DNA of 64,000 nucleotides. Origin: Blastocystis hominis (taxonomy: Eukaryota; Sar; Bigyra; Opalinata; Blastocystidae). This document shows positions 10,611 through 57,415 of the stretch, in pieces. The stretch lies in contig NW_013171828.1 in the NCBI RefSeq assembly GCF_000151665.1, positions 222,817-286,816 of the forward strand, given 5' to 3'. Both the position numbers and the translations under genes were made by a program. The notes under the pieces are model-generated. The model made no database searches, was not told the origin of the DNA, and was given only the letters and a program-made list of their open reading frames with translations. Position 1 is the stretch's first letter, and each line of letters begins with the position of its first letter.

Positions 10611-10617
10611 CTGGGTG

Positions 10618-12964: not shown

Positions 12965-13829
12965 TGTTAACACTGGATAAACAAACTGTATTCCATTCTA
13001 TTTAGTTCAAGGATCATTTTGTATTTATTGCTTGCTTACTTACAATATGTGTTCGTTTGCCCCAAAATCCCTTACAATCATTCTTTGGCCATTTATTGAT
13101 TTAAGATCAATTCAACGATTGACTCTTTTCCATCATCACAACCCAGATTAGTTTAGCTGGCCTGTTTCAATCTTTTGTGTAATCAATCTTGAGAATGAAC
13201 AATATTAATGAGAAATGAGCAAGCAAAACTAATAAGATTGAGTTTGTCACAGTATTTATAATAGGTGTTAGTAATAACTGAAAACCACTACATTTTGGAT
13301 GATTGAATTGAGACCATCATGTGAAAAAAATGAAATGTACTAAATAGTCTCTTATTACCTTCCTATTGTTCGTTGTTATATTTGATTGAAATAGAATGTG
13401 AATAGAAATTAATATTTCGATTCGATTTGTGTTAATTATCTGACAAAATATACTGTTATCACTTAAAGAAGGTTATTTATCAATAAACTCAATGGGTATT
13501 TAGTATCGATATGGATTAAATTAATTTCCAGTAAGAGCAATAAAATATATAAATAATAGAAAAGTTTTAAAATGACTGAATTGCATTTTTAGTAATATGA
13601 AATTGGCGCATTCTACGCGAAACCTGGCAGCTGTATATTTCGCCAAAAATGAGCGAGGCATACCCGTCTGCTCTTTCGAGATAAGCGAGGCTCCCAGTAC
13701 CCGCGAGTCCTCATGTAAGCTAGGCTACCCTAACGTCATTGGTCGCCCAGGACCAGGTTTCACGCAAAAACATGTCAATATCACACTTTTAACCTTTAGG
13801 TAAAGAGGAACAAGTTGTGTACTACTCCA
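12965..13829. other. Non-coding spacer between repeat segments
   Basis: AT-rich to about 13590, then about 200 bases of more balanced composition (13597-13800). The block CCAGGTTTCACGCAAA at 13753-13768 recurs at 41781-41796 near other virus-derived DNA. GGTAAAGAGG at 13799-13808 is the left copy of a motif found upstream of every copy of the virus-like structural gene. No gene seen. Confidence 0.5.
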
Positions 13830-14312
13830 TGTTCATCCAAGGTTCATTCAGTAATTGTTCATTCGAATGGATCAACCCTTACAAGTATCGGAATACCTGC
13901 ATCACTTCCATGACTGTCCTGTTCCGATTCAATTAAGTCATGTTCAACAATGTGGATTCTATTAATGTGGTCACCAACTTGAATGACGAAGAGCTAACGA
14001 TTCCTCCTGGCTACTACATGATCGGTCAAATCATTGCCATCCTCAACACCATGATCGATACTACGTTCTCGATATCTACGAAGGCTTCGAGTTTTGGGTG
14101 TATTTATATCCAGTCCACACACATCATCGATTTCACCAATACTCCGGATATTCGAGAAATCCTCGGTTTGGAAGGACGAATGGTCATTCTACCTGCTTCG
14201 TTCTATGGATCGAATGTGATTGATATCACGCGAAATCACCAAGTGATCCAAGTGTACATCACATTCACGATATCTTGTAAGCACAACTTCAGTAAGGTAT
14301 TCAAGAAGATAG
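13830..14312 (+). pseudogene. Deleted copy of the virus-like structural gene
   Basis: Matches the start of the 400-codon gene at 56193-57395: the segment corresponding to TFEWIKPFKYRNPYITSM is present at about 13865-13930, then an in-frame stop, then the N-terminal domain through the ..NVIDITRN block. At about 14255 the sequence jumps directly to the last 20 codons (TISCK..FKKIDR). About 250 codons are missing and the start region is damaged, so this copy cannot give the full protein. Confidence 0.8.
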
Positions 14313-15320
14313 ATAGATAGATAGATAGATATCAATGTCTATCTTCTATATATATCTGAAAAGTAATAGTTTGATTGTTGCCTCCAACAAATAATCAGCC
14401 AGATATGTCTCACAGCTTGATATTGGACAACTACTCATTCCCATAGAGTCCATTCTTATGGATTTCAGCTTTATCATCAACAATACTGATATCACTATTA
14501 GTGAGTAATTCTATTCATCCTAATGAGTTGGGAACCAAAGCATTTCACTTTCATCAACCAACTCAAACAGCAAGTATTATGTATACTATTGTTATTCATG
14601 CTCGTAATAGAACAACATTGTGAATCACTTTGTATCCCTATTGAAGTGGTGTACAATTCGATCCTTCCTTTAAATAGGAGATATTCTGCATTATTTGGCA
14701 GGTGGGGGATACTATATGGGTTAGAATAAGGGATAGTATTCTCTGGCAATATAACAAACTCTGATAGGTTCAGAGTGCATCAAAACGACAAAAACTGCAC
14801 ACCAACTATCCAAAAACCTAGAAACAGTGGAATATGAATATATCTCTATTTGTTCGTATAAAATATATTATGTATTCTACCTTATTTTGCTCAGTTCTTC
14901 AACGACACACCCACCTTTCTCACAAACTCTACTATTCGATTCTACTATACACATATCACATATTATTACTATAAATGATAACCCCAAAAACTGTTTATCG
15001 CTAGCTTTTCCATTTTCATTCCTATCATCATCTTCTACATACCCTATTTCTTTCTATCCCATCTAGAGTAGATTCCAAATGAATAGAACGAAAAACAAAA
15101 CGCTTCCACTGGAAACAACACTCTTCGATCTATTCATTCCACAATATCCCATTTCCGCTCATCTCCTTCCACTTCACAGTAAAAACAACTCCCTCCCTAT
15201 TCGAAATCTATTCTTCCACTCATACCCAATTTCAACACTATTTTCACAATTGCACAATTCCTGTGTATTTTTGAAATCATTTGTTTTACAATAAAAGCTA
15301 TTAGCTTCGTCTTACTGGGT
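14313..15320. other. Non-coding part of repeat segment B
   Basis: Open frames here (for example 14498-14749 minus and 15079-15294 plus) are repeated almost unchanged in the inverted copy at about 55180-56190, but they have no domain signature, and the conservation covers non-coding DNA equally. I see no gene. Confidence 0.5.
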
Positions 15321-15329
15321 TTGAATGTA

Positions 15330-18301: not shown

Positions 18302-19218
18302 AGATGTGGAATGGTTGAAGCGTTGTAGGATTTGAATGAGAATCGAAAATGTGTTTAGGAAGGAAGGAAGGAAAATGTAGATTTAGAGTGTGTAGGGTGT
18401 TGGAATGATTTAGAAACATGAACAGAATAATCCAGAACGAGGAACCAAACGACTCTAGTTGATAATAATAATAGAGTGCTGTGAGTTGATAGTTGAAACA
18501 AAGATAGAAAGATAGAAAGAAAGAAAGTGTATTTAGAGTTAGTTGGTTGGTTTAGGATAAGGAAATGATAGAAAATGGAGTGAATGGTTAACGATGTGTG
18601 AAGATAGGTTCTTTGTGTGAAAATCACTGGATCAAAACCAATTTCCATTCCATCCGATTTGATTTACTAGTTTTACTAGTTTTACTAGTTTGAATTGCTT
18701 TCAAACCCAACCATTCCCAAGTCAAAATGATTTGGCTAGAATCATGGATGGATAGATTGGATTATCGAAATAATAATAATAATAATAATAATAATGATAA
18801 TATAGACTATTTAGACAAAGTGGAGTGAGCAACCAAATCCTTGCTTCATAACACGATTTCACTATGATATCATAAATATACAACCTATACAGACATAGTA
18901 GACAACAAAATGGACTTTTCCATTTTGAGTGTTTCCAAACAATCCTGATATTATTATTATAAATATCTATACCTCCGAACTATTTCAACCACAAAAATGT
19001 GAACAAAATGATGCGAAACACAAGTGAGTACTTCACTTGGAAATCTTGGATCCAATGTGTATATGGTAGCACTCTATCATAATTTTTAAATATGAAGAAT
19101 ACTTAGGTGTAAGGAAATAAACTGATCTCTCTGTTTTCTTCATAAATTCTTTATATTTGGCTATAAATTACAAATTCAAAGAGTAGAGGCTAAGGATATG
19201 TGATAATAAATAGGTAGA
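18302..19218. other. AT-rich spacer of repeat segment B
   Basis: Contains an ATT/AAT microsatellite (18770-18795) and short tandem copies of ACTAGTTTT (18665-18690). The reverse complement of 51227-52100 matches it closely. No gene seen; the last 200 bases are presumably the promoter region of the gene at 19219. Confidence 0.5.
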
Positions 19219-21067
19219 ATGGAAGAACTTAAGGGAAGCGAATTTCTCCTGGACGGTTACATAACGCTTGGTGAAGCAAAGGAAATCACTATTGGAGGCT
19301 GCAAGTATAGCCTCCAATATTATCAAGGCGATCACGAGGCTGAATACACGTTGACGAGAGCTGGGAAGGTTTGCCTATTCCAAAATGGCATACTGAAGAT
19401 GTATTACGAGGTGGATGCGAACGGGAGCGAAATCGGTGACTTTACGCGATTTGATAATGGACGTGTCGCTTTTGTCCAATCATTTGACGAAATTCTGGAT
19501 CAGCACGATTTTCATCGTATAATAAACCATGTCCGAGGCGAACGAATGGAAATCTATTCGCATGCGAGTGATCACCTGATTTATCACGGTGAATTTAATG
19601 AGAAGCGAGAACGAGAAGGATGGGGCATCGCGTATGACGATAAAACGGGTGCCATGCTGCTTGAAGGGATGTGGAAGGGGAACAAGCTGGTGGAGATCAT
19701 CCGCAAGATCGAGGGAAGCATTATGATCGAGTTCAAGCGAAACGGTAACAACACCATCGCTTCGAATCGAATTCCCCTCTATGTGGGTGAATTCGTTTAT
19801 GATGAATCGAAAGAATCGTTTCTTCGAAATGGTCGAGGATACTGGATCGATGAAGAAACTCGGATTGCTACTCGCGAAGTGGAATGGAAAGATGGAGTGG
19901 AAGTGAGTGGAAGAGATCTGTATGATGGATGGTACACTCGATCCACAACTCTAAAACCCAAACCCAAACCCGCTCCGATGCCTGTGCCTGCTCCTGCTCC
20001 TGCTCCTGCTCCTGCTTATGTTTCTGTTTTTGTTCCTGCTCCTGTTCCAAAACGCGAAGAACCTGCTCCTCTTCGATTCAGCGTCACTGGATCTACAAAA
20101 TGGACCGATGTGAGTTTGCAAGTGACCGATTTGAAGATTTCATCGAATTGCTGTAACGATTTGAATGCATTGGATCTGAATCGATTCGAGTGGCTACGAT
20201 CTATCGAAATCGGCAATGAATGTTTTGGATCAGTGAAAAAATTCAAAATCGATGGATTGAATCGATTGAAAACGATCAAAATCGGAAGCAATTCGTTTAC
20301 TCAAGTGAAACAAGCCGAGCGGAATAAGATAAATTATTGTTATACCGAAGCTGTCCGACGATGTAGCAATTCGAAATCATTCCACATATTGAATTGTGAA
20401 TCATTGGAATCCATTCAAATTGGTGAATGGAGTTTTAGTGATTTTGCTGGCGACTTTGAATTGAAGAATCTACCACAACTACAATCTATAGAAATTGGTA
20501 CAATTGGAAGTTATTCAGGAAATTTCTGCTTAAGCTCATTTGTGATTCAAGGTATTGATATGATATTGAATATTTGAATAATGCATAGATCTTCCAAATC
20601 TACAATCCATTACATTAGGTGATCTTGCATTCACTGATTCCAAATCGACAATACTTGAAAGTATTGAATGAATTCGAATGAAATGATTGATGTAGATCTT
20701 CCATCATTACAATCCATTCAACTCGGTTGTAATGCACTTGTTGGAAAAAGGGATAATCCGACTTCATTGAGACTTCGAAGTAATAATGAATTGATTGGTT
20801 ATGATTTGTTTTGTAGATCTTCCAAATCTAACATCAATAACTTCTGTACAATACAGTTTCTATTTTCCTTATGTAGTGACATTGGAAAGTATTTTTGAAT
20901 ATTGAATATTGATAGTATTTAGATATTCCAAATCTTCGAAATGTTGATCTACCTGGTTCATTCCAAAAAGTTCGATCGAAATCAATTTCGAGTATAGTAT
21001 GATTGATTTGATTTGATTCATAGATGTTTCTTCCATTCTCGCTGATCTTGTCATAATCGATGAGTAA
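19219..21067 (+). CDS. Type-2 MORN-like / leucine-rich-repeat protein, intact copy
   Basis: The N-terminal half (MEELKGSEFLLDGYITLGEAKE..) differs from the type-1 family but has MORN-like turns (LIYHGEFNEKREREGWGIAYD, PLYVGEFVYDES..GRGYWIDEET). A low-complexity Pro/Ala/Lys hinge (about 19955-20060) follows. From about 20195 the protein continues in the same LRR half as the type-1 genes (LRSIEIGNECFGSV..LESIQIGEWSFSDF). Five introns fall at the same places as in the type-1 gene, the first at 20552-20588, all phase 1, each followed by an ATCTTCCA- or ATATTCCA-type exon start. The end is DLVIIDE, TAA 21065-21067. TGTTTGTT occurs at 21131-21138. This looks like a chimaera of a type-2 N-terminus with the common LRR module. 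Confidence 0.8.
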
Positions 21068-22110
21068 ATCTCTAATTTTGATTTGATTTGATTTGTTTAG
21101 TGATTCGTCATTGTTTAGGAATATTTCCATTGTTTGTTTGTTTGTTTGTTTCAAACCGATTCTTGATCACAATTCATGATTCTATAAATTATCAAAATAT
21201 CAATCCTACCTGATTATTATGATGTTCTTCTTTACCATTTTAACAATGATACTGAATTATGATTGTTGTTTCAATCAATCAATCAATCATTGTTTTCGAT
21301 CATTATCATCATCATTATTATTATTATTACCAATGACCCAATGATCACATATTGAACATTCACAAATGATGAATCCAATCTACCAATAATAATAATAATA
21401 ATATAGAAATGATGGTTTGAATAGGTTTGAACTAGGATTTGTTCAATATTGATAGGAAACTGCTTGCTTCGAATAATCATAATCATATTCATCATGAATA
21501 ATAAGATTGGATTTGCTAGTGACACAATGGAATGGTTGGAATCGATTGATATTGGATGATTATTCACATTTGTGAATCCATTGTTAAATCGGTAGATAAT
21601 ACAATACAATACAATACTATACAATGATTGATATTGAATTAGGATATTGATTTTGACTTATTGAATAGGAATAGATCATTGTATACATAGAATAGAATAG
21701 AATAGAATAGAATAGAATAGAATCCGAATGAATAGCATTGGAAATCATATTGGATTCACCATTCAATCAATCCAACTATCATTTGTTTGTTTGTTTGTTT
21801 ATCAATGAGTCACAAAACATGGATTTATCAATTTGATAATAATGGAATCAAATCGGATGTGTTTGATACTTGATAGTTGTAGTTAGTAGTAATATCAATC
21901 ATGGTTTTACAATTCGATATTTGGATGGAATGTCGTATTCTTCAATATCACACAAACCATTCACTCATTCACTCATTCACTCAATCAATCAATGGATCAA
22001 TGGATGAAAGATAGCTGATTCAAAATGCAAATGGATGTTGAATATCGTAAAGAATCAATTCATCATTCACACTCAATAATACTGAGAAGAATAGAAAGGC
22101 TCTTCAATCC
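20195..22110 (+). repeat. Repeat segment C, left copy: LRR half and 3' flank (inverted relative to about 47090-49070)
   Basis: From the first LRR through the stop and about 1 kb of flank with ATT, GTTT, TAGAA and CATTCACT microsatellites, this matches the reverse complement of 49070 down to 47090. In the right block the same LRR half belongs to a type-1 gene, so the junction at about 20195 is where two gene types share sequence. Confidence 0.75.
21131..21138 (+). terminator. TGTTTGTT motif after the type-2 LRR gene
   Basis: First unit of a GTTT microsatellite, 63 nt after the stop. It could act as the polyadenylation motif; because it is part of a tandem repeat, the evidence is weaker than for the single-copy motifs. 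Confidence 0.4.
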
Positions 22111-35371: not shown

Positions 35372-35561
35372 GTAATATAGTATTATGAAGAAGTTGCTGT
35401 TTTGTGTTTGCAGTAGTGGCAGTAGTTGATAATGTAGTAGGGTAGCTTTTTGGGTATAAAGCCATTTTCTTGATAGATCGATGATCTCTGCATTCAATCC
35501 CTTATGGTATATCCTATCCTATGGATTGGAGTGGTATCGATGGGTTGCTGACTGTGAAAAT

Positions 35562-37927
35562 ATCGTTATTACTACATTCTCGATGGAGATCGATCATGAA
35601 TTGTTTTCATAATCACATCCATACAATCTAATACTATATAATGCGGTAGAATCATGATAGTAGACCAGTATTCTATTTCAATTCGACTATTATCTTTCCA
35701 TGTTGACATTAATAATGATAATACTATTAACTCGTACTTAGAATCATGAATCCAATACTCATCAATGGATTTGTCTACCGAGTTGTCAACAATATTCAGA
35801 ACCAATACATATTTCTTCCTCTTTTTATGATCAGCATAATCACAGCATTTAGTACTACTAATATGAAGAAGAATTGTTTTCCTGTACTTTCAAAAGTTAA
35901 AAAACGAAATGAAATATATTTATAATTGAACTCACATTTAAGATCCAAGTTTGATAAATAATAAACAGTGGGTTTGAAGGAATAGATACTACATAAAGGA
36001 TAATTTAACATATCTCATATTTCTAGATTCATTTGAAATTATTTTGCAAGCAACAACCATAAAATCACTACATATAAATCCACTTAGACACGAATAGCGA
36101 GAACGGGAGATACATCTATAAATGAAAATAAAAATTAAGAAATACTCCAAATAGATTTCGATCGAACATACTCGAATGGACGACGAAAATCAGTATGTAA
36201 CTTAACAATTTGAATATTTGGAATATCTAGATACTTTTAGTATTCAAATAATAATAATACTTTCCAATGTCACCCAACGGGGATATTGAAAACTCTTTCC
36301 CTCAGAATTGTCAATTGATGTCAAATTTGGAATATCTATAATCAATCATATTGAATGATTTCAATATTACTTCGCATTGTCAAGGAACAAGAACCATCAT
36401 CTTCTATTCCTTCAAGTGAACTCCAACCAAGTTGAATGGATTGTAATGATGGAAGATCTAGATCCATTATTTCACTCACATTTATTCTATACTTTCAATT
36501 ATTGTTGATAATGATTCATGGAATGCATTGTAACCTATTGTAATGGATTGCAAATTAAGAAGATTTATGCATTATTCAAATACTCAATATCATATCAATA
36601 CCTCGAATCACAAATGAACTATAACAAAAATTGTATGAACTACTTCTAATTATGCCAATTTGAATGGATTGTAATTGTGGTAGATTCTGTAATTCAAAGT
36701 CGCCTCCAAAATCACTGAAACTATAATCACCAATTTGAATGGATTCCAATGATTCACAATTCAATATGTGGAATGATTTCGATTCATTAATTCCCCATCT
36801 GTTCTTTTTCTGAGTAAATGAATTGCTTCCGATTTTGATAGTTTTCAATCGATTCAATCCATCGATTTCGAATGTTTGTACTGATTCAAAACAGTCATTG
36901 CCAATTTCAATTGATTCCAAATTATACAACAATGAAACATCCCAATCAACCAATGCACAATTGTCACTCAGTTTCAAATGTTTCATTCCGATATTCATTG
37001 ATTTGCTTCCATCTCCTTCGTATTCAATGTCACATTCAATTCCATTATACCATTCACATTCATTCACTAATTTACCATATCGATCATACACTTTTCCAAT
37101 TCCAAATCGATTATCATCACACCAATATCCTTCATATTCAATACATCCATTATTATGATAACTCGTTCCATAGCCAAATCGTTTCCAATTGATCATTATG
37201 CCCTTGTACACCAAGAATCCATCATCATTATACATTTCACCATATCCAAATGGAATTCCAAACTTGTTTTCTGTCAATACCAATCCTTCAAATCGACTTC
37301 CATGATCCAAATCCACGATTCCTTCTTCTACTACTGCTATGGATTGTTCTTCATCTATATGAAATAGCACCAATTTGATGATTTCCAAACACTTTCAACA
37401 CTTTCTGCTCATTGAGGACAAATCCTTGATTCATGAATACTCCATTATTGAATTGCAATACTACACATTCTCTATTACTCAATATGAGTGAAATCCAGCC
37501 ATTTGGTTTCATTTCCTTACCCAAGCATCCCTGCACATTTTGAATCATAGAACTATCAATATGATAGTTACTAATAGCAGAATTGACAAAATCAACAAAC
37601 TTTTGCATCGGAATAAAAAGAAACTACCAAATGAATACAATCTCATTATATACCTAATTACAATGTAAAAAATATCATATTCATAGGTTTCGAATATTGT
37701 TGACAACTTGGTGGACAAATCCATTGATGAGTATTGGATTCATGATTCTAAGTACGAATAAATAGTATTATCATTATTAATGTCAACATGGAAAGATAAT
37801 AGTCGCACTGAAATAGAATACTGGTCTACTATCATGATTCTACCGCATTATATCGTTTTAGATTGTATGGATGTGATTATGAAAACAATTCATGATCGAT
37901 CTCCATCGAGAATGTAGTAATAACGAT
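35562..37927. mobile_element. 2.4-kb unit with about 240-bp inverted ends around a broken MORN/LRR gene
   Basis: The left end (about 35562-35806, starting ATCGTTATTACTACATTC) and the right end (about 37687-37927) are inverted copies with only scattered differences. Between them lies a single type-1 MORN/LRR pseudogene on the minus strand. No transposase is present and I see no clear target-site duplication. It may be a non-autonomous element or simply a local inverted duplication. Confidence 0.55.
36084..37608 (-). pseudogene. Type-1 MORN/LRR gene, broken copy
   Basis: Same architecture as the gene at 11425, read from ATG 37606-37608 to TAA 36084-36086. Two defects: one extra base at about 37365 (after the GAISY block) shifts the frame, and the acceptor of the first LRR intron reads TAA instead of TAG (about 36562). 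The remaining four introns and the terminal exon look sound. Probably non-functional unless a nearby AG is used. Confidence 0.75.
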
Positions 37928-38170
37928 GTTTACAGTAGTAGTCAATTAATTACGTCTAAGACGCAAAAACATGGCGTCTGATATTGACCACGGAAGTCCA
38001 TTTTGCGTCTTTCGTGTCGTCTCGGTTGTCCATCACGTCTAAGACGTAATAATCCATGGCAGTCAAAATCAGCCGATTTTGACCAGGATCGTCCCCAGGT
38101 TGCCCACTCCTCCACTGTTTACCATACCATCTATGGTAAAGTAAATGCATGGTGAATTTTCAATTCACCT
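37928..38170. other. Spacer with short repeats and a hairpin at the edge of the viral relic
   Basis: ACGTCTAAGACG occurs twice in the same orientation (37952-37963 and 38035-38046). AGACGCAAAA and TTTTGCGTCT form an inverted pair (about 37960 and 38001). TTTACCATA and TATGGTAAA (38119-38140) form a perfect 9-bp inverted pair with a 4-base loop, and the second arm is the motif seen upstream of the virus-like structural gene. No coding sequence. Confidence 0.5.
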
Positions 38171-38174: not shown

Positions 38175-38312
38175 AAGGAACCTTCAATTTTACGACATTT
38201 CTCCATGCTCATTCAAGGTTCACCTAGTAACGACACGTTCACCTGGATCAACCCGTACAAGTATCGAAACCCCTACATCACTTCCATGAATGTCCTGTTC
38301 ATACCTTAGTAA
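38175..38312 (+). pseudogene. 5' fragment of the virus-like structural gene
   Basis: The plus strand reads a damaged start followed by the segment equivalent to WINPYKYRNPYITSM, then stops. It is oriented opposite to the related fragment at 40890-41380, so the viral relic has been rearranged internally. Confidence 0.65.
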
Positions 38313-38342
38313 AAACAACTTTTACTTTACATGATTTTCAAT

Positions 38343-39215
38343 TGGTAATGCCCGACAGACAGATAACGCACATTGTCGTCCAAAATTCATCTCTTGTTGT
38401 CTGTGCGAGTCATGAATATTTAGGTCTGTTCCTTATTGATGATGACGAAGCCCTGGTTGTTGATGCGTTTGAAGGAGCCCTCAATGATTGTATCGCCTTC
38501 CTCTCTTCCTCAAGAACACACTTGTACAAATCGATGTTCTTTACACTTATTCTCTCACTATCGATTACAACATTGCGAAGTACTCCCGTTGCTGTGTAGT
38601 GTATCACATTCTTCTCATCCACGAAACAGTACATCTTCTGTCTGAGTTTCACGAACTTAATAATACGATGTCCATCGTGTTCATCCTTCTAAATAGGTTC
38701 CGACAGCTTCTTGTCAAAGTTAAGGAACGAGGACCACGAAGGGAATTAATTATTGTCTACTTCCTGATCGTAATAGTTCACATGTTGCTAACAGAAGTAG
38801 CTTGTGTTATCCAACTCCGAGTAGTCGAATGATATTACATCTCATACATCTTGTGAACGATACTGCCCTTGTCATTCGGTTATACGGTGAGTGAGCCATG
38901 TTCTGTCCCAGTTATTTCCCGCTATCGAATGTGTTTTTGAGCACATTGTAGTAGAAATCGTAGATGATGTATTTGGACATGTCGAGAATGGCGAACCCGA
39001 TGAAGAATGGTATCACCATCTTTTCACAGGTGTATTCAACTTGACACCAATCAGATTCTCGGAATACATGGTGATTCCCGCAACATTATCATATCCATAC
39101 TTCTTAATAATAACCTCGCGTTCATTCCATGTGGTGGCGAACTTTACTTTCATTCGTTTCAATTTAGTCTCCACGAATTTGCATTATGTTAATTATGCCA
39201 ATAACTAGAATAGGT
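38343..39215 (-). pseudogene. Protein-primed family B DNA polymerase relic (C-terminal part, Polinton type)
   Basis: On the minus strand, in broken frames, the order of blocks is that of Polinton/adintovirus-like PolB: text around NLIGVKLNTPVKR, then IPFFIGFAILDMSKYIIYDF (the GxxILDxSK block of these polymerases), a region equivalent to the KDE segment, FVKLRQKMYCFVDE (the conserved LRxKMYS block), and finally DNKR..ILDDN..GHY at the extreme C-terminus. Several stops and at least three frameshifts separate the blocks. The exonuclease and the catalytic DTDS part are missing or unrecognisable. This is an old integrated copy from a virus of the protist, not a working gene. Confidence 0.75.
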
Positions 39216-39352
39216 TTATTTCACAGTGGTGTTGGATTTGGCTCGTTTCTCACTTTGCATATTCACATATTCGAATATGAATGAAGCTTGTCTGAAGGGT
39301 ATGTATGTCATACACTATAAACGAAATCAACCAAAGTAAAATAAATGAATCA

Positions 39353-39940
39353 ATGTCGTACATATTCAGCAGCAATGGAAACAATTAAACGTTCAAGAAG
39401 CTCGATAACATGCTCATCAATATACCAGAGAACGACGGCAAAGACATATTCGTACGTGAGACAGTGGATGGCATTCATCAATATTCATGGACGATACCTT
39501 CTGGGTGTTTTGTGAAAGTCAATAATGCCACATTGTTTGAACATACACTCACATCCACTCAACCATTCAATAATCAATGCTAATTCGAATTATCTTCTGC
39601 TTTATATCTCATAATCACATCGATTCCATGTTACAATGAGAATGATGCCCTTAATCAAACATTGTGATTCCATCGAATCGATTGTGGATAAGGGATACAA
39701 GGTGAGTGTTTCAATGGATGGTGTGTGATTGCTCGATATGCCATTCATCGATATACTCAACAATCTTGTGACCCTTTTCGATACCAAACTGATAAATGGA
39801 ATCGAATGGACAAATGAGAGTCATATGATCTCTGTATTCACGAATATCCCTTCTCTTGTATGTCTGAGTGATGTGAAGAGCATCACGATCGTTTTCAAAC
39901 ACTTGGGCGAGGTTGTTGCTTCTGGGTGCTCGTAATGGGT
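39353..39940 (+). pseudogene. Decayed gene between the polymerase and integrase relics
   Basis: Plus-strand text such as LINIPENDGKDIFVRETVDG, QYSWTIPSGCF, and later MPFIDILNNLVTLFDTKLI and VKSITIVFKHLGEV looks protein-like but is interrupted by stops. Its position between PolB and integrase fragments suggests another gene of the same virus-like element. I cannot assign it. Confidence 0.4.
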
Positions 39941-40890
39941 CGATGTGATCTTGCTTCCTCTCTCAATGCATTGGGTTCCTTTCGACTCTTGGATCGAGTG
40001 ATGGGTGGTACTGGTTGTGGTTTACATTTGCTTGCCAGCAGTTCCCAATCATAACACTTCTGTGTGCTATCGCTTTCCACATTCTTCACTTCGTACATCA
40101 ATGGCATGATGTGATCGTCAATGTCAATAACTTCAACCAAGTCCTGAGACCATTTGCTTGTCAATGATCGTTTTTCCAGAATGCGAGGTCTTCGTGTCAC
40201 TCGAACATAATCACCAACATCGAATTGAGGTGTTGTGTCCTTTGCTGTCATGTTGGATGGTTCTGTTTTCTCCATGTACAAGATATCGTTGTTGTTGTTA
40301 AGCCAAAGGTCATTGGGTGTATATCCGATGTCTCTGTTCTTCCTTCCATTATGTCTACAAACTGTACCATCGATCAAGTCGAACCATACACCTTTCGATT
40401 GATTGAATGGAACCATGATGTCTTCCTTGATATCTCGAATTGTACGTTTATCTAGTACTGCCCTATTCGCTGAATCCATGTGATACATGGTGATATCATA
40501 CTTGTCCAAGATGTTGGTACGAAAGATGGCATTGGTGAACTCGGTACTTCGATCCGAGCAACTATGCTTTGATGATTCACCATATGTCTGAATGATATCC
40601 TTCATCGCATGAGTGACTTCTGTAGCACTCTTGCTTTTCAGTTTCCGAGTCATCAAGTATTTCGAATATCCATCAATACATACAAGGACATACTTGTATC
40701 CACGATTCTTGTGGAATCCAGTACTCTTTTGTGATCCTAATACTTCCTGTATCGATTTGTGTTATTTGGAAAAGAAATCGATGAGATCGATGAAGTATAT
40801 GTTTCGTTTGAACCCACTGATGATCACTCGATTGGCACCTCTTCGTTTTGCTGGTTTCCATAGTTCCTTGATCTCATTCATGCTCCCCAC
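39895..40890 (-). pseudogene. Retroviral-type (rve) integrase relic of a Polinton-like element
   Basis: Two open stretches join in the order ELWKPAKRRGANRVI..IYFIDLID (first acidic block), then NRGYKYVLVCIDGYSKYLMT, the second acidic block around CSDRSTEFTN, and RDIKEDIMVPF with DIGYTPNDLW. A C-terminal VGDYVRVTRRPRI..SQDLVEV chromo/SH3-like end follows. This is the order of the Polinton c-type integrase. A frameshift at about 40660-40780 and the altered sequence around the third acidic residue indicate loss of function. Confidence 0.75.
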
Positions 40891-41380
40891 ACACCTCGAT
40901 AAATGAATCGCTTTATTCAAGGAATGAATAAGTTGTGTCAGAGGAAGAATCACAAACTGGTTATAGACTCGAAATGCATTTTCTCCACTATACACTATTT
41001 CAAATAGAGCATCACTCGCATTCAACATTGCAATTATCGTTTCGATATCATATGTACCTCGCGAAATCGATAGAGTATGGAGACTGGATCCAAATACACT
41101 CATAACTTGTAGCCATTGTGGAAATTGAGAATGTAGTATTAATCATAATGTTCAGAATGGCAATGATTTCACTCAGTGTATAATAACTAGGCGAGATCGT
41201 TACCTCTTCACCATTGGTGTTTGTCACCACATTGGTTGAGTCCACATTATTGAACATGACTTGATTAGGTTTGAATAGAACAGTCATGGAAGTGATCTAT
41301 GGATTTCTGAACTTGGAAGGATTGATCCAATCGAATGAACCATTGATAGGTGAATCTTGTATGAGAATGGAATAATGCAT
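40890..41380 (-). pseudogene. Rearranged fragment of the virus-like structural gene fused to the integrase relic
   Basis: Starts at ATG 41378-41380 and reads the N-terminal domain (MTVLFKPNQVMFNNVDSTN.., then SPSYYTLSEIIAILN). It jumps near 41080 to a later block (SISRGTYDIETIIAMLN) and near 40890 into integrase sequence in the same frame. Upstream, CTCTCTTTACCAAAG (41384-41398) is the complement of the motif common to all copies. Confidence 0.7.
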
Positions 41381-41399
41381 ATTCTCTCTTTACCAAAGA

Positions 41400-46984: not shown

Positions 46985-49070
46985 ATAATGATAATGATGA
47001 TGATGAATGGAAATCGAAAACTAACCAAATACACACCATTCATTCAATCATTCATTCAATGGATCAATGGATTGAACAGCCTTTCTATTCTTATCAGTAT
47101 TATTGAGTGTGAATGATGGATTGATTCTTTACGATATTCAACATTCATTTGCATTTTGAATCAGCTATCTTTCATCCATTGATTGATTGATTGAATGAGT
47201 GGTTTGTGTGATATTGAAGAATACGACATTCCATCCAAATATCGAATTGTGAAACCACGATTGATATTACTACGAACTACAACTATCAAGTATCAAACAC
47301 ATCCGATTTGATTCCATTATTATCAAATTGATAAATCCATGTTTTGTGACTCATTGATAAACAAACAAACAAACAAACAAACAAACAAACAAATGATAGA
47401 TAGTTGGATTGACTGAATGGTGAATCCAATATGATTTCCAATGCTATTCAATCGGATTCTATTCTATTCTATTCTATTGTAGTTTCATTGCCTTGTTTTA
47501 TCCATTTCACCTCTATTCTATTCTATTCTATTCTATTCTATTCTATTCTATTCTATTCTATTCTATTCTATGTATACAGTGATCGATTCCTATTCAATAA
47601 GTCAAAATCAATATCCTAATTCAATATCAATCATTGTATTGTATTGTATTGTATTGTATTATCTACCGATTTAACAATGGATTCACAAATGTGAATAATC
47701 ATCCAATATCAATCGATTCCATCCATTCCATTGTGTCACTATCAAATCCAATCTTATTATTCATGATTATTATTATTATTTTGATTATTCGAAGCAAGCA
47801 GTTTCCTATCAATATTGAACAAATCCTAGTTCAAACCTATTCAAACCATCATTTGTATATTATTATTATTATTATTATTTGTAGATTGGATTCATCATTT
47901 GTGAATGTTCAATATGTGATCATTGGGTCATTGGTAATAATAACGATAATGATGATAATGATCGAAAACAATGATTGATTGATTGAAACAACAATCATAA
48001 TTCAGTATCATTGTTAAAATGGTAAAGAAGAACATCATAATAATCAGGCAGGATTGATATTTTGATAATTATAGAATCATGAATTGTGATCAAGAATCGG
48101 TTTCAAACAAACAATCAAACAATCAATCAATCAATCAATGGAAATGTTCCTAAACAATGACGAATCACTGAACAAATCAAATCAAATCAAAATTATGGAT
48201 TTAATGCTTGATTTAGTGGACAAGATTAGCGAGAATGGAAGAAACATCTATGAATCAAATCAAATCAATCAAACTATACTCGAAATTGATTTCGATCGAA
48301 CTTTATCGAATGAAGGAAATAGATTGACATTTCGAAGATTTGGAATATCTAAATACTATCAATATTCAATATTCAGAAATACTTTCTAATGTCACTACAC
48401 GAGGATAAAAGAAGCTATATCCAACAGATGTTATTGATGTTAGATTTGGAAGATCTACAAAACAAATCATTTAACATGAATTCATTATTACTTCGCATTA
48501 TCAATGAACAAGATTCATTCCAATTTCTTCCTTCAAGTGCATTATAACCAAGTTGAATGGATTGTAATGATGGAAGATCTACAACAATCATTTCATTCGA
48601 ATTCATTCAATACTTTCAATTATTGTTGAGAAGGAATAACGGAATGCACGATCACCTAATGTAATGGATTGTAGATTTGGAAGATCTAGGCATCATTCAA
48701 ATATTCAATATCATATCAATACCTCGAATCACAAATGAACAATAACTGAAATTCCATGATTGACTTCCAATTGTTCCAATTTGAATGGATTGTAATTGTG
48801 GTAGATTCTTCAATTCAAAGTCTCCAGCATAATCACTGAAACTATATTCACCAATTTGAATGGATTCCAATGATTTGCAATTCAATATGTGGAATGATTT
48901 CGATTCATCAATTCCCCATCCATTCTTTTTCTGCGTAAATGAATTGTCTCCGATTTTGATCGTTTTCAATCGATTCAATCTATCGATTTTGAATGTTTGC
49001 ACTGATCCAAAACAATCATTGCCGATTTCGATCGATTCCAAATTATACAACAGTGAAACATCCCAATCAA
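46985..49070 (-). repeat. Repeat segment C, right copy
   Basis: Inverted counterpart of about 20195-22110: the LRR half of the type-1 gene at 48213-49731 plus about 1.1 kb of flank containing TAGAA/TTCTA, CAAA and ATT microsatellites whose lengths differ between the copies (for example the TTCTA run at 47511-47570 is much longer than its partner). Confidence 0.75.
48106..48113 (-). terminator. TGTTTGTT motif (minus strand) after the right type-1 LRR gene
   Basis: Plus strand reads AACAAACA. It lies about 100 nt after the stop at 48213-48215, in the position equivalent to 21131-21138 of the other copy. Confidence 0.45.
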
Positions 49071-49731
49071 CCAATACACAATAGTCAATCAGTTTCAAAT
49101 GTTTCATTCCGATATTCAGTGGTTTGCTTCCATCGCCTTCATAAATTTCTTCAATATCACATTCAATTCCATTATACCATTCACATTCATTCACTAATTT
49201 ACCATATCGATCATACACTTTTCCAATTCCAAATCGATTATCATCACACCAATATCCTTCATATTCAATACATCCATTATTATGATAACTCGTTCCATAT
49301 CCAAATCGTTTCCAATTGATCATTATGCCCTTGTATACCAATATTCCATCATCATCATACATTTCACCATATCCAAATGGAATTCCAAAATTGTTTTCTG
49401 TCAATACCAATCCTTCAAATCGACTTCCATGATCCAAATCCACGATTCCTTCTACTACTTCTATGGATTGTTCTTCATTATATGAAATAGCACCAATTTG
49501 ATGATTTCCAAACACTTTCAACACTTTCTGCTCATTGACCACAAATCCTTGATTCATGAATACTCCATTATTGAATCGCAATACTACACATTCTCTATTA
49601 CTCAATATGAGTGAAATCCAGCCATTTGGTTTCCATTCTTTACCCAAACATCCCTGCACACTTTGAATAATGGAACTATCAATACGATAGTTATTAATAG
49701 TAGAATTGACAAAATCAGCAATGTTTTGCAT
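48213..49731 (-). CDS. Type-1 MORN-like / leucine-rich-repeat protein, intact copy on the minus strand
   Basis: Starts at ATG 49729-49731 (MQNIADFVNSTINNYRIDSS..). MORN-like turns are followed by LRRs in the same order as the gene at 11425. All five introns are present with GT/AG ends, the first acceptor reading CCTAG before the DLPNLQSITLGDRAF exon; the final exon ends NVSSILANLVH with TAA at 48213-48215. The two intact type-1 genes differ by scattered substitutions and small indels in loop regions (an IEVVE deletion, the EE/KEKEG loop), which suggests selection on the frame. Confidence 0.8.
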
Positions 49732-50541
49732 GGAAATAGGAAGAAATATGGTAAAACGGTTTTTTTGGAAACAAGATCTGTTTCATTATTTCTCGATAGA
49801 ACACACGTCATGAATTATTGTGTATGGCTGTGATATGCTGGTATGTTAAAAACTAGAATACATATAATAAAATCTCATTTTCTCCACCCATTTCTATTTT
49901 TCTTTATTTCGGTGCATTTCCATCTATTCATTTTTTTTTGTGTTATATTTAGATACTTATAGCTATAATTGTAAATTATTACGCATTTTCATCACCTTTA
50001 TTCTCTCATGTCAGAATGGCTGTTCTATTAAGTCTATAATGGATATATGTTCTTCAAAATATATCAATTATGTGGTAGTTAATCTTGTTTTGCAACAATC
50101 GAACTCACAATAGTGAATACTGTTGGAATGGTCAGATTCGTAATAGAGAGTATGGCAGTAGTATGTAGAATGCAAAATCCATCATTTCTATTTGACAAGT
50201 GGATTATTGTATTGATTCTCTGTTGATACTTCGATTCTCTTCTGTCACAATGATCATCCATATTGAGTACAAAGAATGATATTGCAGAGAAAGGATTGTG
50301 GTTCATAGAGTAAAATGGTGAATAGGAATCATAGTATCATTAAACAAAACAATCGATTGAATAATATGATGGATGGAATCCATGAATCCTATGAATGAAA
50401 ACCTTGCTTTCTATTTGATCAACAAAACAATGTGAAATGCAATGTGATTAACATAGCAATAGTATTAAATAAACAAGTAATATTGAGTGAATGAATGAAT
50501 GAATATGCCATCCATCATAGAGATCTCTTCCACTCACTTCC
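48225..50541 (-). repeat. Repeat segment A, right copy
   Basis: Inverted counterpart of 10618-12950, from the truncation point of the type-2 gene through the CATT-repeat spacer and the type-1 gene. Confidence 0.8.
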
Positions 50542-51226
50542 ACTCCATCTTTCCATTCCACTTCGCGAGTAGCAATCCGAGTTTCTTCATCGATCCAGTA
50601 TCCTCGACCATTTCGAAGAAACGATTCTTTCGATTCATCATAAATGAATTCACCCACATAGAGGGGAATTCGATTCGAAGCGATGGTGTTGTTACCACTT
50701 CGCTTGAACTCGGTCATGATAGTTCCCTCGATTTTGCGAATGATCTCCACCAGCTTGTTACCCTTCCATATCCCCTCGAGCAGCATGGCGACCCACGTTT
50801 TCCTTCGTCATATTGGATGCCCCATCCTTCTCGTTCTCGCTTCTCGTTAAATTCACCATGATATATCAGGTGATCACTCGCATGCGAATAGATTTCCATA
50901 CGCTCGCCTCGGACATGGTTTATTATACGATGAAAATTCTGGTTGTCCCAGATTTCGTCAAATGATTGGACAAATGCGACGCATCCTTTTTCAAATCTGG
51001 TAAAGTCGCCGATTTCGCTCTCGTCTGCATCCACCTCGTAGTACATTTTCAGTATGCCATTTTGGAATAGGCAAACCTTCCCAGCTCTCGTCAACGTGTA
51101 TTCATCCTCGTGATCGCCTTGATAATATTGGAGGCTATACTTGCAGCCTCCAATAGTGATTTCCTTTGCTTCACCATGCGTTATGTAACCGTCCAGGAGA
51201 AATTCGCTTCCCTTAAGTTCTTGCAT
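50448..51226 (-). pseudogene. Type-2 MORN-like gene lacking its LRR half
   Basis: Starts at ATG 51224-51226 (MQELKGSEFLLDGYIT..) and follows the gene at 19219 to the WGI..YD block. An indel at about 50790-50810 then shifts the frame; the second part resumes as LLEGIWKGNKLVEIIRK and runs to DLYDGW. There the hinge and LRR half of the intact gene are replaced by a CATT tetranucleotide repeat and AT-rich DNA. The truncation point is shared with 10660 in the left block, so the truncation preceded the duplication. Confidence 0.75.
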
Positions 51227-52139
51227 TCTACCTATTTGGAATCACATATTCTTAGCCTCTACTCTTTGAATCCGTAATTTGTAGCCAAATATAAAGAATT
51301 TATGAAGAAAACAGAGAGATCAGTTTATTTCCTTACACCTAAGTATTCTTCATATTTAAAAATTATGATAAAGTGCTACCATATACACATTGGATCCAAG
51401 ATTTCCAAGTGAAGTACTCACTTGTGTTTCGCATCATTTTGTTCACATTTTTGTGGTTGAAATAGTTCGGAGGTATAGATATTTATAATAATAGTATCAG
51501 GATTGTTTGGAAACACTCAAAATGGAAAAGTCCATTTTGTTGTCTACTATGTCTGTATAGGTTGTATATTTATGATATCATAGTGAAATCGTGTTATGAA
51601 GCAAGGATTTGGTTGTTCACTCCACTTTGTCTAAATAGTCTATATTATCATTATTATTATTCTTTCGATAATCCAATCTATCCATCCATGATTCTAGCCA
51701 AATCATTTTGACTTGGGACTGGTTGGGTTTGAAAGCAATTCAAACTAGTAAAACTAGTAAATCGAATCAAATGGAATGGAATGGAAATTGGTTTTGGTCC
51801 AGTGATTTTCACACAAAGAACCTATCTTCGCACATCGTTAACCATTCACTCCATTTTCTATCATTTCCTTATCCTAAACCAACCAACTAACTCTAAATAC
51901 ACTTTCTTTCTATCTTTCTTTCTTTGTTTCAACTATCAACTCACAGCACTCTATTACTATTATTGTTATTATCAACTAGAGTCGTTTGGTTCCTCGTTCT
52001 GGATTATTCTGTTCATGTTTCTAAATCATTCCAACACCCTACACACTCTAAATCTACATTTTCCTTCTTTCCTAAACACATTTTCGATTCTCATTCAAAT
52101 CCTACAACGCTTCAACCATTCCACATCTCTACAATTCCA

Positions 52140-54990
52140 TCCATCCATCCATCCATCCATCTTCCAAACCAAACACCGCAACCATTTCTCTCTTTCTCTC
52201 TCTCAGCAACTACCAAATCGGTCTGGATCGTGGAAACGTGGAAACATCGCGACCCACGGCGCACCAGGCGTGATCGACGAGGTGGGCGCGGATGAGCGCG
52301 CCGGTCACGTCGTAGGCGAAGAGGAGGCGGAGGCGGAGGCGGAGGCGGAGGCGGAGGCGGAGGGGCTGGGTGACGGAGACCACGGTGGCGTTCTGCGCCC
52401 AGTTGGACAGGAAGAGATCCAGAGAGCCCGGTCGACTCTGCACACCTTCGTAGGGAGCCACGGACCCCACCCCATCGCCCACCAGATTCCTGCTCACTCA
52501 CACCCACACCCACACCCACACCCAGAGCGAACCGGTGAGCGAGGAGGTTGGCTCACCGTCCACCACCAACACCCAACGAATTCCGACGTGGCCATCGTGG
52601 ACACTCCGAATTGCCTGCCCATCCACTCGGCACTGCCCACTTCGCTCGGGACGCACTCCAGCGTGTAGGAAGTCGCGGGGATCCCACCCTCCAACACGTC
52701 CCACACATCGCGTCCCGCGGGGAACCAGACGGTTCGGCGGAAGGAGGAAGGAGGAAGTGGCGGGAGCGCGAAGCTCGCACGTGGCGGTGCAGAGATCATG
52801 GAAGGATCCGGTAATCGCCATCGCACAGTCCCACTCAATGCCCTCCGCCTGATTCCACACACACCGCATACAGAACCGCGGGGATCTTCTCTTGGCGGGA
52901 GAGATACCCGTTGAACGCGGCCACGCTCAGATAGATGGGCGCGTGCTGCACGCTCTGCACGCTCTGCACGCTCTGCACGCTCTGCACGCTCTGCACGCTC
53001 TGCACGCTCTGCACGCTCTGCAGGTCCAGGAAGCAGTTCGTGCTGGCGACCTCGCTCTCGCTCTCGCTCTCGCTCTGGATCACGGCCATCGACGCCATCC
53101 ACGAGCGTCGCACCACGTAGTACCGAATGCTGGCGCCGCCCAGCTCCGCCGGCTCTGCCCACTGCACGCGCAGCGAGGTCGAGGAGAGCGCGGCCACCTC
53201 GAGGTTCTGCACCGCGCCGGGCGCGACGACATACGCGGCGAGGGTGATGGGAGAGGAGGCCTCGGAGAGGATGGAGCACGCGGCGGAGCACAGCGCCACG
53301 CGCACCCAGTAGGCCACGCACGCATCGAGAGAGAGAGAGTTCGGCTTGCTGGACGTCGCCCTCTTGGAGGAGCGCGTCGGCGGCGAAGAGCTGGGAGTGG
53401 GAGCCAACCAAGGCCTGCACGAAGAGCTCGCACCACCACCAGACCCAGCGCACCTGCGTGGCTTCGAAGGCGGCAGCAGCACGACGGGCGCGGAGGCAGG
53501 GAGGGAGGCAGGCAGCAGCACGACGGGGCGGTAGACGGAGAAGGACGCGAAGGCGGACCAGGAGGCGCCCTTGCGGACACGCCAGCTGATGGCCATCACG
53601 CTGTTCACAATGGCGCCCGCCACCAACACGGAGCGCGTCTCGAAGAACTGGCTCTGCACATTGCTGCCCATCAAGGCCATCCATCGGGGCTTCATCGGAG
53701 ATGCCACTGCTCCAGGGAACCTCCATCTGCACAGACACGCTGCGCTGCGCTGCGCCTACTCCACTTCCCTCATACCAATCGCGCTCTCCACAATCCGAGC
53801 AGGCCACAACCGAACGCCAACCGAACACCAACCGAACGCCAACCGAACGCCAACCGAACGCCGGCGCGGGTCGAGAAGGTCGCGATGAGGGTTTCCGCGG
53901 GGAAGGGGAGGCCGTTTCGGGACACCAACCTGTTGGCATTGATGTAGAGCGTGCGTGCCTTCGCAAAACCGCGGGAAGGAGCCATTGAAGGCGAACGCGA
54001 AGGCGAACCCAATGGTGTAGTCGGAGATGGAGATCGCGGTGGTGGGATAGGAGAACGTGGCCTCGGCCAATTCAAACACGATGTGGATGTTCATGGGCTC
54101 GAATGGATCGTTCATCACCTCGCCCACGCCCACATTGCTCGTGCAGTACATCGTGGATTGCTTCCCATCTCCCATCGTCCACAGCGCCACGTCCCTCGCC
54201 CCATCGCCCGCCACGCAGCGCAGCGCAGCGCAGCATCGGCAGGATGGGCTGGCAGGAGCCCGTCCCCTATCGATCGATCGATCGATTCCCACTGCTGATA
54301 GGCGTTGCACCCATCCGTGATCATGCCCCACTAGTCCACATCGCACTTCGTATCCAACACTTGCCCCAAGTGCCCTTCCGGCTACCCCGCCGCTTCGTCC
54401 GCGGGGCACACCACCGCCACGCACCTCACCTCTCTTCCATTCCAACACTTCCCACACGCCCGCACCACGCACACCCCCACCTTCCCATGCTCCACAGACC
54501 CACAAATGCAGAACTGCACCGTCTTGGAACTCGCCTCCTCCCACTGGCCATTCCAGTTCACTCGGCTCCCATCAATCAGAGGCGAAGACCGTGTCCACAG
54601 CAGTTCGCATACTCCGCCTTCTTGTCCCATTCTCCCAAGTTCCACACACGCTCCGCTTCTACAAACCTACAGCTCTTGCTCCCATAGTTTGTCCTTTCAC
54701 TCATCGCAAATCCGTTCTCTCTACCACACTCTACCACCTCACAATATGAAAATGAAAATACGAGAAACAGAACAGATATCCTAGGCAAGAACGTCGTGCC
54801 TGTACCAGATACCTCCCACGTTGCAAGTTATCTCCATGTATCCGCGGTCGCACATGGCATGAATGGGTTCGCCACGTTGCACAGTTTGAAGTACAGAAAT
54901 TCCTCACTCGGAACACATTCCACACAGCAAAAATGGAACCAGGGTCCACCGCCATTATGGTATTGAATGCGTTCACGATACATATCTCAC
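52140..54990 (-). CDS. GC-rich multi-exon gene with fibronectin type III-like domain, right copy (boundaries approximate)
   Basis: Mirror copy of 15330-18301 with the same exon blocks (IHIVFELAEATFSYP, NGLPFPAETLIATFSTRA, QSQFFETRSVLVAGAIVNSV, PGAVQNLEVAALSSTSLRVQW, SLDLFLSNWAQNATVVSVTQP). Differences concentrate in tandem repeats. Ser-Val-Gln has eight or more units (about 52945-53020) against three in the left copy; Ser-Glu is shorter; an inserted tract of CGAACGCCAAC-type repeats (about 53815-53860) lies next to a presumed intron; the final exon shifts frame relative to the left copy. Whether both copies are expressed is not visible from sequence. Confidence 0.42.
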
Positions 54991-54994
54991 ACAC

Positions 54995-56192
54995 AGTTTA
55001 GTCAAAGTAACGATAGCGCACACTACACTAGCTTCTTCAAACACACCAACTTGACGACAGAACCCATCCCAGCTACAATACTTACACTCCCACAACACAA
55101 CACACAAAAACACATAGAAGTCCGAAAACAAAACAAAAGACAGGACATACAAGTCCAATTCCAAATTTTGAATACATTCAAACCCAGTAAGACGAATCTA
55201 ATAGCTTTGATTGTAAAACAAATGATTTCAAAAATACACAGGAATTGTGCAATTGTGAAAATAGTGTTGAAATTGGGTATGAGTGGAAGAATAGATTTCG
55301 AATAGGGAGGGAGTTGTTTTTACTGTGAAGTGGAAGGAGATGAGCGGAAATGGGATATTGTGGAATGAATAGATGGAAGAGTGTTGTTTCCAGTGGAAGC
55401 GTTTTGTTTTTCGTTCTATTCATTTGGAATTTTATCTAGATGGGATAGAAAGAAATAGGGTATGTAGAAGATGATGATAGGAATGAAAATGGAAAAGCTA
55501 GCGATAAGCAGTTTTTGGGTTATCATTTATAGTAATAATATGTAATATGTGTATAGTAGAATCGAATAGTAGAGTTTGTGAGAAAGGTGGGTGTGTCGTT
55601 GAAGAACTGAGCAAAATAAGGTAGAATACATAATATATTTTATACGAACAAATAGAGATATATTCATATTCCACTGTTTCTAGGTTTTTGGATAGTTGGT
55701 GTCCAGTTTTTGTCGTTTTGATGCACTCTGAACCTATCAGAGATTGTTATATTGCCAGAGAATACTATCCCTTATTCTAACCCATATAGTATCCCCCACC
55801 TGCCAAATAATGCAGAATATCTCCTATTTAAAGGAAGGATCGAATTGTACACCACTTCAATAGGGATACAAAGTGATTCACAATGTTGTTCTATTACGAG
55901 CATGAATAACAATAGTATACATAATACTTGCTGTTTGAGTTGGTTGATGAAAGTGAAATGCTTTGGTTCCCAACTCATTAGAATGAATAGAATTACTCAC
56001 TAATAGTGATATCAGTATTGTTGATGATAAAGCTGAAATCCATAAGAATGGATACTATGGGAATGAGTAGTTGTCCAATATCAAGCTGTGAGACATATCT
56101 GGCTGATTATTTGTTGGAGACAACAATCAAACTATTACTTTTCAGATATATAGATATATATATATATATAGAAGATAGACATTGATATCTAT
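54995..56192. other. Non-coding part of repeat segment B, right copy
   Basis: Inverted copy of 14313-15320 with ATAG/CTAT microsatellite (56155-56210) next to the structural gene stop. No gene seen. Confidence 0.5.
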
Positions 56193-57395
56193 CTATCTAT
56201 CTATCTTCTTGAATTCCTTACTGAAGTTGTCCTTACAAGATATCGTGAATGAGATGTACACATTCGAATTCAAGGAGATCGGACGGTCATTCGCATCTGT
56301 CAATACCCAATCAATGGAATCCAGATTCGATTGTTCAATCACATCGATCGATAGGTTGTCCCAGGTGATCATGTTGTTCAGTCCCATCGATACATGAATC
56401 AGGTTATCGATCAGCGGACTCTTCAGACCGAATGTTTGAGCATTGATACTACTGTACACTCGGATCACACTCATGCCATTCGTGATGTCGTAGGTTCCTC
56501 TGGTTATTAACACCTCGTGTGGGGATGTCCCCGCATCGATTAATATCACTTGATCGGATGGGACATTGTGCAACACGAAGTCAGTATACAACGACACAGA
56601 CGATATGGAACATTGATCGAATGACAGAGGATTGTCCAGCTTCACTTCCTTCTTCGTAGTATTACCGAACACTTCCATCATACTCAACTGGTTCATCGGT
56701 AGAATTGAGGAAGGCACTTGATCAAACACATCTTCGATCGTCAACTGGAGTTCGAATTCGCCGTTCAATCGCATGATATTACCATCCATATCGCGGAACA
56801 GGAACATCAATCGGTCGAATCGGGTTATCATCGGAATGCAGATGTCTTCCACGGTGCGGAGGTAATTAACCTCGGGATCGTCAATGATCATTGTGGTGAG
56901 CAGGTTGTTGTTCTGGTTGGCAATCTTCAGATCGGAGGAACGCACGAGAGACGAGTACACTTGGATCACTTGTCGATTTCGTGTGATATCAATCACGTTC
57001 GATCCATAGAACGAAGCAGATAGAATGACCATTCGCCCTTCCAAACCGAGGATTTCTCGAATATCCGGAGCATTGGTGAAATCGATGGTATGTGGATACT
57101 GGATATAAATACATCCATAACTCGAAGCCTTCGTAGATATCGAGAACGTAGTATCGGTCATGGTGTTGAGGATGGCAATGATTTGACCGATCGTGTAGTA
57201 TCCAGGAGGAATCGTTAGCTCCTCGTCATTGGAGTTCGTGACCACATTCGTAGAATCCACATTGTTGAACATGACTTGATTGGGTCTGAAGAGGACAGTC
57301 ATGGAAGTGATGTAGGGATTCCGATACTTAAAAGGTTTGATCCATTCGAACGTGCCGTTACTAGATGAGCCTTGGATGAGCAAAGAGTAGTGCAT
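56193..57395 (-). CDS. Uninterrupted virus-like structural protein gene (candidate minor capsid/penton of a Polinton-like element)
   Basis: 400 codons, no intron, ATG 57393-57395 to TAG at the edge of a CTAT microsatellite. Two related beta-rich halves: the first has PGYYTIGQIIAILN and ends with FLFRDMDGNIMRLNGEFELQ; the second has LITRGTYDITNGMSVI and a similar closing strand pattern. The text resembles the smaller structural proteins of Polinton, adintovirus and Polinton-like virus groups, and the link is supported by decayed copies lying next to polymerase and integrase relics at 38.2-41.4 kb. Lack of introns in an intron-dense genome also fits viral origin. The sequence TATGGTAAAGAGAG (minus strand, 57402-57415) lies just upstream. 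Which structural protein it is remains inference; a host-adopted role is possible because this copy stays open. Confidence 0.6.
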   Translation of the reverse strand: MHYSLLIQGSSSNGTFEWIKPFKYRNPYITSMTVLFRPNQVMFNNVDSTNVVTNSNDEELTIPPGYYTIGQIIAILNTMTDTTFSISTKASSYGCIYIQYPHTIDFTNAPDIREILGLEGRMVILSASFYGSNVIDITRNRQVIQVYSSLVRSSDLKIANQNNNLLTTMIIDDPEVNYLRTVEDICIPMITRFDRLMFLFRDMDGNIMRLNGEFELQLTIEDVFDQVPSSILPMNQLSMMEVFGNTTKKEVKLDNPLSFDQCSISSVSLYTDFVLHNVPSDQVILIDAGTSPHEVLITRGTYDITNGMSVIRVYSSINAQTFGLKSPLIDNLIHVSMGLNNMITWDNLSIDVIEQSNLDSIDWVLTDANDRPISLNSNVYISFTISCKDNFSKEFKKIDR

Positions 57396-57401
57396 GGCTT
57401 A

Positions 57402-57415
57402 CTCTCTTTACCATA
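57402..57415 (-). promoter_or_regulatory. Conserved motif upstream of the structural gene
   Basis: On the minus strand TATGGTAAAGAGAG ends 6 nt before the ATG. Related sequences precede the other copies: CTTTGGTAAAGAGAG (minus, 41384-41398), TAGGTAAAGAGG (left copy, ending 13808) and CTATGGTAAAG (plus, 38131-38141). A virus-type promoter or leader element is the simplest reading. Confidence 0.5.

Follow-up and report, generated by a model that had tools for sequence, protein, structure and literature searches.

A decayed Polinton in a Blastocystis genome and its capsid-encoding family with apparently mobile double hairpins

The stretch of DNA analyzed here, hereafter the window, comprises 64,000 nucleotides of the Blastocystis hominis assembly (contig NW_013171828.1; C14:222817-286816 of an 18.7-Mb genome in 40 contigs). 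Positions 38201-41394 of the window hold an internally deleted, frame-broken copy of a Polinton, an element of about 22 kb in its fuller form. DNA comparison with three fuller copies of the same genome (C13, C2, and C3) resolves this relic, read along the minus strand, into the start of a structural gene, a further piece of that gene, the integrase, the integrase end, the junction of two small genes, and the end of the polymerase gene PolB. The pieces are collinear with the fuller copies, and most are separated by large internal deletions. An earlier note, made from the sequence alone, had described the remains of a Polinton-like virus with fragments of PolB and of an rve integrase, and this description is supported.

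The 5′ end of the structural gene, a broken gene of about 1,040 amino acids (aa), lies at 41060..41394 on the minus strand and is 71.5-75.4% identical in DNA to the starts of the gene at C13, C3, and C2. It is followed, with deletions on either side, by a second fragment of the gene at 40973..41069 (minus; 79-80% to C13:465974-466070 and its equivalents). The integrase gene and its upstream region (39929..40978, minus) are 86.4% identical to C13, and identity to C2 reaches 88.9% across 39920-40881. At the 3′ end of the integrase region (39868..39920, minus), C2 possesses double-hairpin DNA that the relic lacks, seen as a gap of ~87 bp on the C2 side. The junction of two small element genes, with frames of 184 and 233 aa, is found at 39286..39490 (plus; 79-82% to C2:1451124-1451320 and equivalents), next to the C-terminal part of the PolB gene, which is spread over several frames at 38308..39281 (minus) and matches the PolB genes of C13, C2, and C3. 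Beside the PolB end, an inverted second piece of the structural-gene start (38201..38299, plus; 80.8-84.8% identity) forms one arm of an inverted repeat, I2, that pairs the structural-gene pieces at both ends of the relic (75% over 111 bp). Structural-gene fragments are thus present in both orientations, as had been noticed before.

The integrase frame at 39895-40761 (minus, 288 aa) matches PF00665 with E = 4.5e-9 (bit score 36.9, cut-off 32.6), so that the rve integrase first recognized by eye on this strand is borne out. It is broken by an in-frame stop, and according to the alignment its third catalytic acidic residue is lost; its synonymous divergence (dS) from two intact copies is ~0.31-0.34. 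The PolB stretch aligns with the final ~980 nt of complete PolB genes elsewhere in the genome at 75.7-77.1% DNA identity (E = 0.0), which confirms the C-terminal PolB pieces proposed for the minus strand, and the corresponding half of an intact-copy PolB gene matches PF03175 at 1.1e-15. In a PHROGs search, the small PolB pieces had no significant match and the integrase had weak matches to transposases, and a PDB sequence search with the PolB half gave nothing useful. Neighboring alignment segments overlap by 6 bp (40973-40978) and 10 bp (41060-41069), and these overlaps at the deletion junctions may be microhomologies. Compared with the three element copies, 38175-41398 has no match to the ATPase-like or capsid gene. 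A search of the window for the terminus motif of the element found no occurrence, at the relic or elsewhere. An LRR-type (leucine-rich repeat) gene adjoining the relic is bracketed by 258-bp inverted repeats (35555-35812 and 37677-37934) that are 94% identical.

In the genome as a whole, a profile search returned at least 120 matches to PF00665 and at least 86 rows for PF03175, while the capsid gene has at least 82 matches at ~76 loci, with an open frame in 60 of its 66 full-length copies, and the ATPase-like gene has at least 82 matches. The capsid loci in this Blastocystis genome agree with the previous suggestion that the lineage has been colonized by such an element. Chaining by expected distances, with a structural-gene list that was a selection of 69 rows, linked 72 of the 120 integrase matches to PolB and 44 to the structural gene, giving 38 complete integrase-PolB-structural triplets. 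The family is estimated, at 22 kb per capsid locus, to make up 7.8-8.9% of the assembly. Among 73 integrase homologs listed, the single one with a named source belongs to Blastocystis sp. BT1 (55% identity, contig of 687 kb). The Blastocystis polyadenylation motif TGTTTGTT (PMC4159000) occurs 34 times against 3.5 expected, with some matches in overlapping runs, and the sequence of a Blastocystis 18S barcode primer has three matches, in putative 18S genes, whereas its reversed control has none. Blastocystis is therefore very probably the host. Between copies from eight loci (28 of 28 pairs), the ratio of nonsynonymous to synonymous divergence (dN/dS) has a median of 0.09 for PolB (range 0.03-0.16) and 0.23 for the integrase (range 0.10-0.53, two of the loci having short frames), and a single pair of capsid genes gives 0.11. 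The copies diverged mostly while functional, under purifying selection. Since the family is abundant with many open copies, the relic by itself is an ordinary fossil, among the least informative copies of its family.

The gene order of one fuller copy begins on the first strand with the 1,040-aa structural gene, followed by genes of 231, 800, and 332 aa and a KilA-N gene, and continues on the opposite strand with the ATPase-like gene, a 179-aa gene, the 429-aa capsid gene, a 430-aa gene, the integrase, two small opposite genes, and PolB. The integrase of an intact copy matches PF00665 at 3.5e-13. The KilA-N domain protein of the element (L029:8234-9097) matches PF04383 at 4.9e-9. The 429-aa capsid protein has no Pfam match, but the structure predicted for P0076, which shares 97% identity with the element frame, is a double jelly roll, with the Sputnik capsid as its best PDB match by Foldseek at 11% identity. 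UniProt entry A0A8S5L5M3, named “MELD virus sp.,” is 71% identical to the capsid model with a TM-score of 0.95-0.97, and a phage collection searched with the capsid protein gave no match. The 231-aa and 1,040-aa proteins have domains in common and are possible minor capsid proteins. In the ATPase-like protein, Walker A- and B-like motifs can be recognized by eye, making it a probable packaging ATPase.

The earlier note had also proposed a search for intact copies with terminal inverted repeats (TIRs) elsewhere in the genome, and such copies were found. Ends were examined for 30 of the 38 triplets, and 28 of the 30 carry the terminus motif, AGTAGTAGG on the left side and CCTACTACT on the right, in one case (C16) by a 9-mer only, without further likeness. 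Perfect 6-bp target-site duplications (TSDs) flank 11 of the 30 elements, and one more matches at 5 of 6 positions; a 6-bp duplication is described as typical of rve integrases (PMC12220804). Where several candidate ends existed, the pair was scored including its flanks, so that four of the 11 perfect TSDs were chosen in this way and seven stem from a single candidate pair. TIRs could be aligned in 24 of 28 pairs, with 75.6-100% identity over up to 497 bp (three over only 32-33 bp). In four of the 11 elements with perfect TSDs, TIR identity is 99.1-99.7% over 220-434 bp, which suggests recent insertion. For one Polinton with TSD CTTCTT (C3:173874-195813), paralogous unoccupied sites are present in the window, the equivalent of its insertion point being at 56204..56210 by DNA comparison. 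Many of the remaining end pairs (L030-L089) combine different TIR types without a TSD, and one left flank was found with two different right flanks. Such mixed ends would be produced by inter-copy recombination and by assembly chimeras alike.

Our reading, at a probability of about 0.93, is that a Blastocystis-like gut protist carries a capsid-encoding Polinton family of ~22-kb elements in its genome, and that the locus is a dead member of this family. The fuller members code for PolB and integrase, for a double-jelly-roll capsid protein and a KilA-N protein, and in addition for a probable packaging ATPase and possible minor capsid proteins. Several results weigh against this assignment: a perfect TSD is absent from 19 of the 30 end pairs and an alignable TIR from four of the 28 with termini, and therefore many copies are mosaic or misassembled; the relic PolB fragments taken alone have no Pfam match; an IMG/VR scan with the capsid alignment found no relative; neither Pfam nor the PDB gave a significant match for the ATPase-like protein; and no protease family was recognized among the element frames scanned. 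New copies of the element would arise through protein-primed replication, with the integrase inserting them into the genome, and virions may be formed; the present copy would have lost most of the element through internal deletions and then decayed.

A separate related relic is the open 401-aa frame at 56193..57398 (minus), in which ~305 aa from the N-terminal side of the structural gene are followed by ~92 aa from the C-terminal side of the 231-aa gene, and of which a truncated copy lies at 13796..14257 (plus) within an inverted segmental duplication. Long copies of this frame occur elsewhere in the genome at 85-94% identity, some of them open, and it is possible that it spread by duplication or was domesticated. 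Its predicted structure is poor (mean model confidence, pLDDT, of 50.5) and unfit for structure search. The segmental duplications, large, imperfect, and inverted, span 10614-21738 and 47038-57412 (e.g., 14252-19932 against 56261-50508, 94.3%) and contain LRR-type genes, a G+C-rich gene, and the 401-aa Polinton-derived frame.

Other origins of the locus can be weighed on the same evidence. Profile searches did not assign the segments to a retrotransposon or to cellular genes, the outcome that had been named as contradicting a Polinton, and a cellular-gene reading was rejected on the profile matches, the DNA matches to fuller copies, and the element ends. Rve integrases are reported to be common to Gypsy, Ginger, and Polinton elements (PMC2836005), and the relic could on that ground be a degraded long terminal repeat retrotransposon or Ginger-type transposon with a real integrase and a chance likeness to PolB; but the adjoining 974 bp match the PolB genes of the fuller copies, which possess TIRs, partly 6-bp TSDs, and a capsid gene, and this explanation is refuted by the recurrence of integrase, PolB, and capsid genes together in units of ~22 kb, which leaves it a negligible probability. 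It is also conceivable, though unlikely, that the relic is a short non-autonomous derivative produced by template switching, resembling a miniature element with the structural-gene start at both ends as inverted repeats. The inward-facing starts paired by I2, the large deletions with short overlaps of 6 and 10 bp, and the repetition of a second derived form, the 401-aa fusion, are consistent with such an origin, whereas the missing terminus motif speaks against it.

A further proposal concerns the fuller Polintons themselves, namely that they are virophage-like, with expression dependent on a large DNA virus of Blastocystis as yet unknown. In classical Polintons, PolB plus integrase are generally regarded as sufficient on their own, and to our knowledge no giant virus of Blastocystis has been described. 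The best structural match of the capsid, to Sputnik, fits this proposal, as does the lack of the Blastocystis polyadenylation motif at element gene ends: a match of 7-8 of 8 positions, scored against TGTTTGTT itself, was found at none of 29 element gene ends compared with three of 10 chosen host-side ends. However, random element segments reach 7 of 8 in 5.5% of cases and 8 of 8 in none, and because they so seldom reach 7 of 8, the zero at element ends is the chance level, that is, neither a host signal nor a depletion. We regard virophage-like dependence as unlikely. The family is one of capsid-encoding Polintons, with an unusual load of apparently mobile hairpins.

These hairpins surfaced in a shared-motif search upstream of genes, in which a promoter was not found. 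Three elements (66 kb) contain 34 adjacent pairs of perfect hairpins, with stems mostly of 8-9 bp and loops mostly of 3 nt, whereas 24 kb of flank, the 64-kb window, and three shuffles of six loci contain none; the relic is devoid of them. The unit is about 40 bp long, and the folds of three units agree with two adjacent hairpins. At the ends of the 30 elements, the density of single hairpins is 1.58 per kb on the inner side and 0.09 per kb on the outer side. When the whole genome was searched with a pattern for one double-hairpin form, 240 matches were counted on the forward strand, overlaps included (control 0), and among the matches listed, 33 of 33 distinct places fall within element spans. 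For one hairpin core (78 copies, control 0), this holds for 50 of 50 places among the matches listed, the element spans covering 16.5% of the genome.

Comparison between copies revealed hairpins present or absent at homologous sites and flanked by 2-7-bp repeats, a pattern that suggests mobility of the double hairpins. Fifteen such events were judged clean, while sites were dropped when there was no comparable empty site or when the sequence was diverged or nested. The length change is a multiple of three in all nine clean coding events and in four of six intergenic ones, and because the intergenic events show it too, the excess partly reflects a common 45-bp unit. Frames contain 15 of the 34 hairpin pairs, although ~85% of the element is coding. 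Units are sometimes nested in the loop of another unit, and loops at homologous sites were seen as exact reverse complements (GAA/TTC, AAA/TTT, AGA/TCT), as if flipping (L021-L029, L030-L089). At one hairpin site of the structural gene, the insert was absent from all 23 metagenome proteins spanning the site, the sole carrier being the element protein P0075; insertions are thus not confirmed outside this genome, and short-read assemblies may break at palindromes. With somewhat less than even odds, we propose that the Polintons host ~40-bp double-hairpin hyperparasites, characterized by short target repeats, nesting, loop flipping, in-frame residence in viral genes, and restriction to Polintons. 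As to their movement, we favor template switching that would take place on single-stranded element DNA during replication.

The family resembles the Polintons/Mavericks with capsid genes described by Bellas et al. (2023; PMC10120064), which are likewise 15-30 kb long with TIRs, an rve integrase, PolB, a double-jelly-roll capsid, and many copies in protist genomes. It differs from them in the 429-aa capsid without a Pfam match, the 1,040-aa structural protein sharing domains with the 231-aa protein, and the double-hairpin insertions. Blastocystis is absent from the main text of that study, whose supplementary copy-number table may hold it. Literature searches on Polintons and Blastocystis found the genus named only in a reference list, and on the Blastocystis genome, transposable elements, and Mavericks, nothing on Blastocystis elements appeared among the matches listed. 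The Mavericks of Trichomonas vaginalis are a comparable case, being high-copy Polintons of an anaerobic protist with a capsid gene that is hard to recognize, but they occupy about a third of a far larger host genome, against the estimated 8-9% here. The MELD virus sp. (taxid 2834287, unclassified viruses) evidently belongs to the same family; its database listing and taxonomy entry name no host, whereas here the family is found integrated in the genome of a Blastocystis-like organism.

The double-hairpin literature found concerns organelle DNA. Double-hairpin or repetitive hairpin elements described there from fungi, sponges, and Volvox share with the present ones short perfect hairpins and potential mobility, and those of Volvox also loops (3-5 nt) and nesting in one another. 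In contrast to these organelle hairpins, the units lie in a Polinton and partly in frame in protein genes, with multiple-of-three length changes, and they have 2-7-bp flanking direct repeats, which Allomyces elements are said to lack in the paper on sponges. Residence in organelle DNA without target duplication does not apply here, where the units sit in integrated elements and flanking repeats are present. The Rickettsia palindromic elements, of more than 100 bp, are palindromic selfish DNA tolerated in frame in protein genes. They are named in PMC5799277 and differ from the present units in host, size, and form.

A capsid-encoding Polinton family filling an estimated 8-9% of a small genome points to a likely host for a relative of the “MELD virus.” With the double hairpins, palindromic selfish DNA can be studied inside a virus-like element, and the copies are numerous enough for tests of how the units move. 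If they are indeed hyperparasites, their mobility would be tied to the element's own replication, for example through hairpins on the strands displaced when DNA is synthesized from a protein primer, and no earlier case of such units in a virus-like element of the nucleus would be known.
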